The position numbers and the translations under genes are program-made. A model generated the notes under the pieces. The model made no database searches and had not been told where the DNA came from. It saw nothing but the letters and a program-made list of their open reading frames with translations. This document shows, in pieces, positions 38,738-45,281 of a stretch of DNA of 64,000 nucleotides. The DNA is taken from assembly GCF_900113765.1 (NCBI RefSeq), contig NZ_FOQO01000011.1, positions 124,001 through 188,000 on the forward strand, read 5' to 3'. How positions within the stretch are numbered: position 1 is the stretch's first letter; each line of letters opens with the position of its first letter. Source of the stretch: Parapedobacter indicus. GTDB taxonomy: Bacteria > Bacteroidota > Bacteroidia > Sphingobacteriales > Sphingobacteriaceae.

Positions 38738-39126
38738 AAAAGCAGGCCCGTTCTATCGCCGCGGCAGCAGCCGGGGAGGAAAGTCCGGACAACACAGAGC
38801 ACCTCGCTTCCTAACGGGAAGGGCCCCGATGCAGATTGGGGTACGGAAAGTGCCACAGAAAACAAACCGCTTCGATTCGTTGGAGCAAGGGTGAAAACGT
38901 GGGGTAAGAGCCCACGGCTTTGTATGGCAACATACATCGCGGTAAACCCCGGGGGTTGAAAGGCCAAATAGGTTGCGGATTACTGGAGCTGCTCGCTTCT
39001 AATTTGCCGGTAGGCAAACACCGCAACGGGTAGGCCGATGGAGCCTGCTAGTGATGGCAGGCCTAGATAAATGATAGAAGCCCCGCTTGCGGGGAACAGA
39101 ATCCGGCTTATAGGGTTTGCTTTTTT
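38738..39126 (+). ncRNA. rnpB: RNase P RNA (class A)
   Basis: The catalytic RNA that trims tRNA 5' leaders, about 389 nt. The 5' universally conserved GAGGAAAGTCCGGAC (about 38776) and the 3' counterpart AGATAAATGATAGAAG... ACAGAATCCGGCTTAT (about 39064-39110) are present. AAGCAGGCCC at the start pairs with GGGTTTGCTT at the end (helix P1), which defines both ends to within a few bases. The T-run after the last helix may serve as terminator. The gene sits alone between an MFS gene and an NtrC-type regulator gene. Confidence 0.96.
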
Positions 39127-40850: not shown

Positions 40851-42032
40851 CTAGGCAATTTCAGCGATAAATACGCCATCACGGTTGACCGCATCCCGGT
40901 TTTTAAGGATATTTCCCAAATTTACCTTGCCAATTACATATTTGAAATTGTTGGCGTAAAAACGTTCGCTGATGGACGAAAATCCGAGTGTTTCGATCAG
41001 CTGTTCATCTTCATAACGAAGGTAGACCTGAATGTCCCAATCGGTGCTATATGTCAGTTCACCCGCCCCAAGATGTTTTTTATATTCGTATTTGTATCCG
41101 TACCGGAGCGCAGCAATGTCAGACAACACCGCAGATCCGGTGGGATGCCCTCCAGCACCCTTGCCATAGAAAAATTGTTCATCAGCAAATGCAGCTTTAA
41201 CCAGTACACCGTTATACTCGTTTTCCACGGCGTAAAGGATGTTGTCGGGAGAGACCAGTTTTGGCAGTACGTAGAGAATGACTGCTTTGTCGTTAATTTC
41301 CCGTGCGGTAGGAATTAGTTTTATTCTGAAATTTTTCTCCCGCGCAAATTGAATATCCGAAGCGCCCAACTTATCGATTCCGATGTTTAAGATGGCATCG
41401 GGGGATAAATACAAGCCATAAGCATGGGAGGCAACGATGGTCAATTTAAATTTAGCGTCAAATCCGCCGACGTCTAACGTAGGATCGGTTTCCGCAAACC
41501 CAAGGTCTTGTGCTTGTTTCAATGCGGTTGAATACGCTAAGTTTTCATTGAATATTTTCGAAAGAATGTAGTTGGATGAACCGTTGAAGATACCAGTTAC
41601 CGAATGCAATAGCTCGTTGTCATAGTATTCTTCCAGGTTTCGGATAATGGGGATACTGCCGCACACAGCACCTTCGTAAAGTAGGCTGGTGCCATGTTTA
41701 TGCTGAATATCCACCAATTCTTCCAGGTGGGTGGCGATCATCTTTTTATTTGCCGAAACCACATTCTTGCCCGATCGGAGTGCTGCGGAAACGATGTCAA
41801 AGGCTGCCGCGGCGTCATCTATTAATTCGACCACGGTATTGATTTCGGGGTCGTCCAACACAGACCTCGCATCCGTGGTGAATAACGATGCGGGCAATGT
41901 TCTTTTTTTTTCGGGATGTTTGATGACGAACCGTTTGATGGCAAGGTTGAGATTTTTGGTCTTGATGATGTCGTGTAGCCCTTGTCCCACTACGCCGAAA
42001 CCGAAAAGTCCTAAGGTAAGTTTGTTGTCCAT
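40851..42032 (-). CDS. hom: Homoserine dehydrogenase
   Basis: A 393-residue NAD(P)-dependent enzyme converting aspartate semialdehyde to homoserine. The N-terminal Rossmann motif is LGLFGFGVVGQGLHD (about 6-20). The catalytic-domain signatures are NGSSNYILSKIFNENLAYSTALKQAQDLGFAETDPTLDVGGFDAKFKL (about 150-197), with the catalytic Lys in DAKFKL. It is short for a hom gene: the usual C-terminal ACT regulatory domain is lacking or reduced. As last gene of the metY-metX-hom unit it supplies homoserine for methionine synthesis. Confidence 0.93.
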   Translation of the reverse strand: MDNKLTLGLFGFGVVGQGLHDIIKTKNLNLAIKRFVIKHPEKKRTLPASLFTTDARSVLDDPEINTVVELIDDAAAAFDIVSAALRSGKNVVSANKKMIATHLEELVDIQHKHGTSLLYEGAVCGSIPIIRNLEEYYDNELLHSVTGIFNGSSNYILSKIFNENLAYSTALKQAQDLGFAETDPTLDVGGFDAKFKLTIVASHAYGLYLSPDAILNIGIDKLGASDIQFAREKNFRIKLIPTAREINDKAVILYVLPKLVSPDNILYAVENEYNGVLVKAAFADEQFFYGKGAGGHPTGSAVLSDIAALRYGYKYEYKKHLGAGELTYSTDWDIQVYLRYEDEQLIETLGFSSISERFYANNFKYVIGKVNLGNILKNRDAVNRDGVFIAEIA

Positions 42033-42054: not shown

Positions 42055-43122
42055 TTAGCTCACTTGTTGATAAGCTAGTTGATTTTGGGTCGCCTTGTTG
42101 TGACTGAGGAACCTTGAGATCTCTTCCGTAATCCGCTCGGTCTCTATAAGAAAGCCGTCATGTCCATAAAATGAGTTGATTTCGGCATATACCGCGTCTG
42201 GAATGTGGTTGGTTAGGAATTTTTGCTCCGTTATGGGGAATAAGAGGTCGCTGTTGATTCCAATGACCAATGTTTTTGCCTTGATCTGGCGCAAAACGTC
42301 ACGTATATCCGCGCGTCCGCGTCCGATATTGTGCCCATCCATCGCTTTGCTCAGGAACCAATAGCTATAAGCGTTGAAACGCTTGACCAGTTTCTCTCCC
42401 TGATAATTCTGATACGAAGAGGCCCGGAAGCCATCTGTTTTTTCATTCGAAGTTTCCAGTTGAGTGGCCCCATAGGTGTCATATCCGCGATAAGACAGCA
42501 ATGCCATACTGCGGGCCGCTTTCAGCCCTTTCGCCCCCCCATTAGGTTTGTTCGCATAAAAGGTCCGATCGGCACTGATGGCAAGTCGCTGACTTTCATT
42601 GAATGCGATACCCCAGGGAGAATGGATGGCATTTGTCGCAACAAGTACCAGGCGGTCAATCCGGCTGGAATCCATAATAGCCCATTCCAACACTTGCTGG
42701 CCACCCAACGAGCCACCAATGGCCAACGCGATTTTTTCGATGCCTAAATGAGCTGCAAGCAATCGGTGCGCGGCCGCTACATCCCGGATAGAAAACGAAG
42801 GGAAAGCTAAGTAATAGGGTTGTCCGGTTGCCGGATTGATGCTCAAAGGGTAGGTAGTCCCGTAAGGAGATCCGATACTGTTTGCACAAATTATAAAATA
42901 ATCTTTCGGATTGAAGAAATCAGTTGAGCCGAACAATCCCGGCCACCACTCGAAAACGTCCGAATTACCCGTAAGTGCATGACAAACCCATACCACGTTA
43001 TCTTTCCGTTCATTCAGGCTACCATATGTGTGGTAAGCGATTCGAAGGTTTTCGATTCGCTTACCACTTTCAAGTGTGAATGTATCTGAACACGTAAATG
43101 TTTGTATGCTCATACGAGGCAT
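42055..43122 (-). CDS. metX: Homoserine O-acetyltransferase
   Basis: A 355-residue alpha/beta hydrolase-fold enzyme that acetylates homoserine with acetyl-CoA. The nucleophile Ser is in IGGSLGGQQVLEWA (about 145-158), the family text YHTYGSLNERKDNVVWVCHALTG and GSPYGTTYP precede it, and the catalytic His is in SFYGHDGFLIE (about 320). Its stop is 22 bp before hom, and it begins two bases after metY, so the operon is tightly packed. Confidence 0.96.
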   Translation of the reverse strand: MPRMSIQTFTCSDTFTLESGKRIENLRIAYHTYGSLNERKDNVVWVCHALTGNSDVFEWWPGLFGSTDFFNPKDYFIICANSIGSPYGTTYPLSINPATGQPYYLAFPSFSIRDVAAAHRLLAAHLGIEKIALAIGGSLGGQQVLEWAIMDSSRIDRLVLVATNAIHSPWGIAFNESQRLAISADRTFYANKPNGGAKGLKAARSMALLSYRGYDTYGATQLETSNEKTDGFRASSYQNYQGEKLVKRFNAYSYWFLSKAMDGHNIGRGRADIRDVLRQIKAKTLVIGINSDLLFPITEQKFLTNHIPDAVYAEINSFYGHDGFLIETERITEEISRFLSHNKATQNQLAYQQVS

Positions 43123-43124
43123 AA

Positions 43125-44429
<1,305 letters not shown>

Positions 44430-44487
44430 TTATTGTTTTAGAATTTTAAATTTGTTTTAAAATGGATAATCCGATTGGATGCTATTT

Positions 44488-44527
44488 AGCTATAACCGCC
44501 TTAAACGGCGGCTACTCGTGAATAGCT
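44488..44527 (-). promoter_or_regulatory. Two-tier hairpin in the metY leader
   Basis: Inner stem CCGCC (44496-44500) with GGCGG (44507-44511) around a 6-base loop; outer stem AGCTAT (44488-44493) with ATAGCT (44522-44527). It begins, on the minus strand, about ten bases after the stop codon of the Cys-rich leader ORF and ends about 61 bases before the metY ATG. A ribosome stalled on the last Cys codons would come close to it or cover part of it, as in attenuation leaders. No long U-run follows, so it may act on translation rather than on termination. Confidence 0.5.
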
Positions 44528-44537
44528 GGCAAAGGGC

Positions 44538-44639
44538 CTAGCAACATCCGCACATACCCTGTACGCCCGGGCACATTCGGCGGACTCCCGCCCTTATGGA
44601 TGCTAAATAATGAAAGTTACTTGAAAAATCCGTATTCAT
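44538..44639 (-). CDS. Cys- and Met-rich leader peptide ORF upstream of metY
   Basis: An ATG at 44639, ten bases after the P1 helix of the SAM-I aptamer, opens a frame of 33 codons ending in TAG at 44538-44540. The peptide begins MNTDFSSNFHYLASIRAGVR and ends RMCPGVQGMCGCC, with four Cys and two further Met in the last twelve residues. It is too short for standard gene finding. The concentration of Cys codons just before the stop, the position between aptamer and metY, and the hairpin after it are the features of an amino-acid-responsive leader peptide. Translation itself is not shown by sequence. Confidence 0.5.
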   Translation of the reverse strand: MNTDFSSNFHYLASIRAGVRRMCPGVQGMCGCC

Positions 44640-44649
44640 CGTCTTATTA

Positions 44650-44760
44650 TTTATATGCTCCCAATCGATATCGTTTGGGACAGGAATTGGCACCTTTTCC
44701 ACCGTTTGCGAATGGTTGCCAGTGGGTCACTGAGCCAGTCTCTCGCCACTTCTTTATAAA
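44650..44760 (-). promoter_or_regulatory. SAM-I (S-box) riboswitch aptamer
   Basis: On the minus strand the element starts with TTTATA, which pairs with TATAAA at its end (helix P1). Inside lie the conserved GCGAGAGACTGGCTCAGTGA, CTGGCAACC and AAAGGTGCCAATTCC blocks of SAM-I riboswitches, followed by the P4-like TCCCAAACGA...TTGGGAGCA hairpin. It precedes metY-metX-hom by about 220 bases and should repress the operon when S-adenosylmethionine is abundant. Confidence 0.93.
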
Positions 44761-44812
44761 CCAAGACCTTAAAGAGGAATTGATTTGTATGTGCCTAAAC
44801 ACATAACGGATG

Positions 44813-44844
44813 CAAATATAGCGGGTGCGATTTGGTTGTGCAAA
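44813..44844 (-). promoter_or_regulatory. Promoter of the metY-metX-hom operon
   Basis: On the minus strand TTTG (plus 44841-44844) and TATATTTG (plus 44813-44820) are 20 bases apart, a near-perfect Bacteroidetes promoter. Transcription would begin near 44807, about 45 bases before the SAM-I aptamer. The predicted 5' leader is therefore close to 380 nt. Confidence 0.65.
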
Positions 44845-44867
44845 GTTTTTTTGATTTTTTTGCGAAG

Positions 44868-45281
44868 ATGAGCATTACTTTTAATACTGCGGCGTTGTTA
44901 TTCCCTGCGATCAGCTTGATTATGTTGGCATATACCAACCGGTTTCTGGCGCTGGCGGCGCTGGTCCGTAGCCTGCACGCGAAATACCTTGAACATAATA
45001 AAAGCGGGGTCCTGCATGGACAGATCAAGAATCTGCGCTATCGGCTTAAACTTATCAGGCAAATGCAAGCCTTGGGTGTAGTAAGCTTTATTACCTGTAT
45101 TGTTTGCATGTATTGTATTTACATGGAATTCAAGTTTTTTACGGAGCTGACATTTGCCCTGAGTCTGCTGTTCTTTGCCGTATCGTTGATTATTTCATTG
45201 GTTGAAATTCAGGTAAGCAATAGAGCACTGGAATTGGAACTTGGAGATATGGAGGGCAGGAAAAAAAGCGGCCCCCAGTAG
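44868..45281 (+). CDS. DUF2721 domain membrane protein
   Basis: A 137-residue protein with three predicted helices: TAALLFPAISLIMLAYTNRFLALAALVRSLH (about 6-36), and a pair at about 70-90 and 95-115. The RFLALAALVR-LHA pattern followed by a basic amphipathic stretch (IKNLRYRLKLIRQ) is typical of DUF2721. The function is unknown. I chose the ATG at 44868 (MSITFNTAALLFPAI) over the frame's upstream start because it gives the family N-terminus. It is divergent from the met operon and convergent with glutamine synthetase. Confidence 0.82.
   Translation: MSITFNTAALLFPAISLIMLAYTNRFLALAALVRSLHAKYLEHNKSGVLHGQIKNLRYRLKLIRQMQALGVVSFITCIVCMYCIYMEFKFFTELTFALSLLFFAVSLIISLVEIQVSNRALELELGDMEGRKKSGPQ

Follow-up and report, generated by a model that had tools for sequence, protein, structure and literature searches.

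A SAM-I riboswitch adjoining a conserved Cys-tailed leader ORF upstream of metY: a probable joint reader of SAM and Cys in Sphingobacteriaceae

The metY-metX-hom operon of Parapedobacter indicus is preceded by an RNA leader in which a SAM-I riboswitch aptamer adjoins a short open reading frame (ORF) with Cys codons clustered before its stop. The ORF is almost certainly a conserved translated leader, judging by its occurrence, reading frame and codon changes among relatives, and the comparative data suggest that the leader RNA probably reads both SAM and Cys through it. The locus lies on the minus strand of the stretch of 64 000 nucleotides that was analysed, referred to here as the window. Its features are listed below, with the basis of each assignment in brackets.

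44813–44844, minus strand: Bacteroidota-type promoter, TTTG, 20 nt and TATATTTG (sequence)
44648–44762, minus strand: predicted SAM-I riboswitch aptamer (RF00162, 76.2 bits, cut-off 44.4)
44538–44639, minus strand: leader peptide ORF of 33 codons, MNTDFSSNFHYLASIRAGVRRMCPGVQGMCGCC (ORF, with frame, Cys-tail and synonymous tests)
44538–44576, minus strand: tail of regulatory codons, MCPGVQGMCGCC and stop (Cys/Met enrichment of leader tails)
44481–44526, minus strand: two-tier hairpin after the leader stop, without a U-tract (minimum free energy fold, shuffles)
43125–44426, minus strand: metY, O-acetylhomoserine sulfhydrylase (TIGR01326, 674 bits, above cut-off)
42055–43122, minus strand: metX-like homoserine O-acetyltransferase of the metY operon (best match TIGR01392, 348 bits, below the cut-off of 500)
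40851–42032, minus strand: homoserine dehydrogenase (hom) of the metY operon (NF004976, 315 bits, cut-off 205)

The promoter elements, TTTG at 44844–44841 and TATATTTG at 44820–44813, are 20 nt apart and fit the Bacteroidota consensus at −33/−7 (TTTG/TAnnTTTG); promoter hexamers were also picked up by a sigma-70 scan. Between promoter and leader ORF lies the 115-nt aptamer, which belongs to SAM-I by its covariance model and is complete (model positions 1–108 of 108). The ORF ends in MCGCC, and a conserved CGA codon at 44577–44579 (CGA AUG, Arg-Met) directly precedes its regulatory-codon tail. An earlier note on this DNA had placed promoter, SAM-I aptamer, ORF, hairpin and metY in this order, and every element was found. 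Two of its measures had to be adjusted: the leader ATG, placed there ten bases past the aptamer, follows the end of the P1 3′ strand by 8 nt, and the two-tier hairpin, given as 44527–44488, is really a few bases longer (44526–44481). Searches of Pfam and NCBIfam with the leader peptide, and of Rfam with the hairpin, gave no family. The intergenic region holding the metY promoter is shared by a divergent plus-strand gene (44832–45281) with an N-terminus conserved within the genus (L004, L014, L021). The window also contains an RNase P RNA of bacterial class A (38740–39126, plus strand, 262.7 bits).

Regions upstream of metY were collected from the family Sphingobacteriaceae and then from the class. 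The family yielded 170 distinct regions with SAM-I, 165 recognized by a core pattern and five more by eye, and 169 of these have a leader ORF at the equivalent place. Outside this family, loci with SAM-I and a leader before metY occur in roughly nine further families of the class. The reading frame was examined in a set of 186 entries, four of which repeat genomes already in the family set, while for a few (e.g. L070 and L278) the longer ORF of an overlapping pair was taken. The ORF span is open in frames 0, +1 and +2 in 186, 6 and 32 entries, respectively; openness of frame 0 follows from entry selection, and the baseline is given by the other two frames and by shuffled sequences. Starting at the fixed ATG, at least 27 codons are open in 99% of the observed sequences versus 24% of the shuffles. 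Leader length is variable, with a 5–95% range of 31–46 codons.

Coding is also indicated by single-base codon changes, which were counted in 28 close pairs. The earlier note had named conservation of the ORF and its Cys cluster, with a bias towards synonymous changes, as a check on its reading. ORF and Cys tail both proved conserved, and the tail carries the bias: 22 substitutions are synonymous and 34 non-synonymous, that is 39% synonymous versus 16% expected (p = 3e-5). Constraint on the ORF body is weak (28% synonymous versus 21% expected in the same pairs); the body evolves fast in sequence while its reading frame stays. When 300 genomes of the order were searched for an exact match to the tail of the window's ORF, only the window's own genome was hit, so that nucleotide identity is the wrong yardstick for this element.

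The composition of the leader end is distinctive. Cys accounts for 26% of the last 15 codons versus 0.7% of the preceding ones, and Met for 12% versus 0.7%. Typical tails are CMCMCCCC, CMCCCIQ and RMCCC, with RMC...CC in the window's genus. At least two Cys codons are present within the last 20 codons of 153 of the 186 entries, and at least one in 175. A short leader ORF with regulatory codons clustered near its end, the layout expected of an attenuator, is thus what was found. Of the 82 Arg codons that stand directly before Met in the tail, 67 are CGA, compared with only 17 of 193 Arg codons in other positions.

Exceptions to the Cys tail exist. The Cys-poor leaders are mostly from Sphingobacterium and end in RMR, with a conserved string, CGAATGCGNTAG; eight Sphingobacterium leaders have no Cys within the last 20 codons, and CGAAUGCGNUAG is retained in this genus even after Cys loss. 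The closest relative examined (L057), whose MetY N-terminus is 98% identical to that of the window, has a leader ending in RMCRD with a single Cys, and two other loci (L273, L274) have SAM-I and an ORF lacking Cys. Loss of the Cys codons in close relatives that keep the riboswitch, which the earlier note would have counted against its reading, is accordingly seen in a minority of lineages.

Among the SAM-I loci compared, the Cys tail is specific to metY leaders. None of the SAM-I loci before other genes (metE-, iscS-, metF-, peroxiredoxin-like or outer-membrane genes, named by eye) has such a Cys-tailed ORF after P1, and no convincing Cys-tailed leader was found near cysE/cysM or other PF01053 genes of the window's genome. 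Two ORFs from other settings were noted. A second Cys-tailed ORF of the window's genus, MYQTNTHRDHRGWPTYDQIRRVSDERIMFHITIPSCCMCCC (L338, ~1390–1515; G187:C1:58304), lies ~134 nt upstream of a gene for a SusC/TonB-like outer-membrane protein, and no SAM-I core was seen there. In Flavobacterium pectinovorum (L124), a 65-codon ORF whose last codons are rich in Cys (SRCCRNRLCLLPSGCFSMQIF) terminates 17 nt upstream of metY, again with no SAM-I core seen before that gene; this ORF may represent a leader of a different type.

The position of the ORF points to a role for the riboswitch that the earlier note had not considered, namely an action of SAM-I on the leader's own start. The leader ATG lies ~8–12 nt past the P1 3′ strand in most SAM-I loci. 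In one genome (G306, locus L229) leader ORF and hairpin are absent, and metY itself starts 10 nt past the aptamer, with an ATG whose surroundings (AAGACatATG) are nearly identical. The spacing of the leader ATG, together with the placement of metY in this one genome, suggests that SAM-I controls its adjacent start, which in the usual layout is that of the leader. P1 3′ strand and leader ATG do not overlap directly. That SAM-I gates translation of the leader is a tentative proposal, to which we give slightly less than even weight. The only other SAM-I of the genome (L001, G000:C19:396554–396659) precedes metE and has no Cys ORF; a two-tier hairpin without U-tract was recognized there by eye, which suggests that the metE and metY SAM-I leaders share one output step.

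The hairpin that follows the leader stop has a minimum free energy of about −25 kcal/mol (z −3.4), and none of 200 shuffles was equally stable. In Sphingobacterium, the stop codon UAG of the leader sits within the 5′ arm of the hairpin UAGUCGUC/GACGACCA. Here 98% of the cells are paired and three pairs are changed on both sides; the covariation score was reached by none of 500 shuffles, a comparison that favours pairing, since the choice of the arms depended in part on their complementarity and a constant AAAA spacer linked them. Over all entries, the distance from the leader stop to the start of the first stable helix has a median of 5 nt (upper quartile 12), which is within reach of a terminating ribosome.

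Classic hairpin termination, as in the attenuation layout named in the earlier note, is not supported for this leader. An intrinsic terminator (hairpin plus U-tract) is lacking in the window and in 184 of the 186 SAM-group entries, the other two having one; a permissive terminator scan returned mostly non-terminator folds. The metY start is not sequestered either, since the hairpin ends 54 nt upstream of its ATG, and the minimum free energy fold leaves the 13 nt immediately ahead of this ATG single-stranded. Sensing of both SAM and Cys, also put forward in the earlier note, is still the best reading, but pairing of Cys codons with downstream segments was no better in the SAM group than in shuffled sequence. 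Because there is no U-tract terminator and the metY start is free, Rho-dependent termination is favoured as the output, and Rho is encoded in the window's genome. It is nevertheless the weakest step of the model, and we regard it as possible but doubtful. The C-over-G ratio of the ORF body was considered as a hint of Rho action; it is a weak one at family level (1.79) and does not hold for the window's ORF body (0.82). Likewise discarded was TAGCATCC, present inside the ORF and at the 3′ arm of the hairpin, as a partner of the Cys codons: the genus alignment gave no sign of such pairing.

Relatives without the riboswitch offer a simpler version of the Cys part. In several genomes from other families of the class, metY is preceded by Cys leaders but not by SAM-I, e.g. 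MNKNYNTMCTCMRLFAEGCCICAC. Eight such loci (L279, L281, L289, L290, L291, L293, L298 and L299) were negative for SAM-I before metY in the Rfam search, and their Cys leaders matched no Rfam family. In L281, L289, L290, L293 and L299, the Cys leaders are followed by clear intrinsic terminators, mostly as two leader–terminator units in series (the first unit of L299 was identified by eye). In L289 and L293, a coding segment past the first Cys codons pairs with the 5′ arm of the terminator better than shuffled sequence does. The first units of both loci gave p = 0.002 and the second unit of L293 gave p = 0.016, compared with p = 0.2 for the second unit of L289. The combined p is 1e-4 over 11 leader–terminator pairs. 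The layout in L289 and L293 is that of a textbook attenuator and, by analogy, supports a function of the window's leader as Cys sensor.

A model in three steps would accommodate these findings. When SAM is bound, P1 would close against the leader start region and keep ribosomes off; in Bacteroidota this region would be an unstructured, A-rich segment instead of a Shine–Dalgarno sequence. When SAM is low, the leader would be translated. With scarce Cys-tRNA, the ribosome would then stall at the Cys codons before the stop, and with ample Cys it would proceed to the stop, where it would either cover the 5′ arm of the hairpin or set it free. The RNA state formed would decide whether RNA polymerase continues into metY, likeliest via Rho. 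To judge from the terminator-bearing relatives, from which we infer the sign of the response, metY expression should go up under Cys starvation. In such a scheme, the direct target of SAM-I would be translation of the leader peptide, not the biosynthetic gene, and the two metabolites would act through a hierarchical gate on the synthesis of homocysteine in several Bacteroidota families; we hold this generalization with some reserve, as an idea with not quite an even chance of being right. The metabolic setting is compatible with joint sensing. A cysE-like and a cysK/M gene lie just beyond the edge of the window, ~20 kb away from metY, and the genome encodes several PF01053 enzymes, so that two routes are available to sulfide, one directly to Cys and one via MetY to homocysteine. 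It is reasonable that SAM and Cys should be sensed together at this branch point.

The link between the two sensors is the part of the model with the most serious competitor. The riboswitch might act alone on elongation or stability, and the neighbouring leader would then be a separate, ungated Cys attenuator. The modules are indeed separable, as Cys leaders without SAM-I and SAM-I without Cys leaders both exist, and the gap between P1 and the leader ATG would agree with independence. Against this stand the near-constant spacing (8–12 nt) in most loci, the occupation of the leader's spot by metY itself in L229, which points to control of the adjacent start, and a SAM-I for which no separate expression platform, such as a terminator, was seen. 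We consider independence unlikely. Less probable still is that the nascent peptide, rather than the supply of Cys-tRNA, sets the stall, either through arrest at an Arg-Met-(Cys/Arg) end or through slow codons (CGA, terminal Cys). Such an arrest would explain the preference for CGA before Met and the retention of CGAAUGCGNUAG in Sphingobacterium where Cys is gone. Yet the number and order of Cys vary freely (CMCMCCCC, CCCCC, MCGCC), which suits codon sensing better, and the terminator-bearing relatives retain Cys and Met but mostly not RM.

The nature of the ORF itself leaves little room for other readings. An ordinary small Cys-rich protein, binding metal or thiols and encoded in the operon leader, would share the clear coding signature; its fast-evolving body, its variable length, the lack of a Pfam or NCBIfam match and the fixed place between riboswitch and hairpin make this very improbable. 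Even harder to credit is a chance ORF whose Cys codons are by-products of an RNA pairing element. Runs of TGT/TGC could pair with downstream GCA/ACA segments in some Mucilaginibacter, but such pairing does not exceed that of shuffled sequence, and coding is favoured by all three tests, of frame, Cys tail and synonymous change. The reading that we prefer is a translated leader that joins the SAM and Cys signals.

This leader, conserved across Sphingobacteriaceae, stands at the metabolic branch that leads from sulfide to homocysteine. It represents conserved, testable leader-peptide control in a phylum with thinly studied regulatory RNAs and with translation starts that lack a strong Shine–Dalgarno sequence. 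Because nature offers Cys leaders with terminators and no SAM-I, SAM-I without a Cys leader, and the two combined, the order of the sensors can be tested. In the main texts of the open-access literature, no description came to light of a Bacteroidota metY preceded by a Cys leader, nor of SAM-I joined to a leader peptide; the earlier note knew of no description of the pairing in Bacteroidetes. To our knowledge, few natural leaders join a riboswitch and an amino-acid leader peptide.

By sequence, the window aptamer is a full member of SAM-I (S-box, RF00162). S-box riboswitches typically act through a terminator or through sequestration of the start of the structural gene, whereas the start adjoining the aptamer in the window belongs to a leader peptide. 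The mgtA leader, too, reads more than one signal and is not known to have a SAM aptamer or Cys codons. The tandem attenuators of Salmonella mgtCBR (PMC3641672) also resemble the window in that leader ORFs and RNA structure read several signals; the signals are different ones, and these attenuators are not known to involve a SAM aptamer or Cys codons. The SAM-II riboswitch of Sinorhizobium metA (PMC9373788) shares with the window a nearby start codon, layered control and a methionine gene, and differs in riboswitch class, in an in-frame alternative start, in its intrinsic terminator and in having no Cys leader. Within Bacteroidota, amino-acid operons of Flavobacterium psychrophilum have been proposed to be under leader-peptide attenuation (PMC9723704), and short ORFs were noted in long leaders of B. 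thetaiotaomicron (PMC7366714).

Cys-rich upstream ORFs are known in actinobacteria, as the earlier note stated, but also outside them. The uORFC-8-2 motif before cysS of Rhodobacterales (PMC8632094) has tandem Cys codons and a proposed ribosome-mediated attenuation, as in the window; unlike the window, this alphaproteobacterial motif has an intrinsic terminator, controls cysteinyl-tRNA synthetase and is described without a riboswitch. In Mycobacterium, cys operons are preceded by Cys-run leader ORFs without terminators (PMC1262725), and Cys-responsive attenuators have been reported (Canestrari 2020, as cited in PMC13236596). The M. smegmatis case is presented in PMC13236596 as translation attenuation. 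In a polycysteine attenuator of this type, a hairpin would sequester the start of the next gene; in the window, the metY start lies ~54 nt past the hairpin and is unsequestered. Nor is the window's Cys-run ORF leaderless at the 5′ end of the transcript, as in the mycobacterial type, since the SAM-I aptamer precedes it. The mycobacterial polycysteine leaders are described with no riboswitch in front and stand in another phylum before another gene. They resemble the window in their short ORF with a Cys run near the stop, in their place upstream of sulfur genes, and in the lack of an intrinsic terminator, with Rho-dependent termination proposed.
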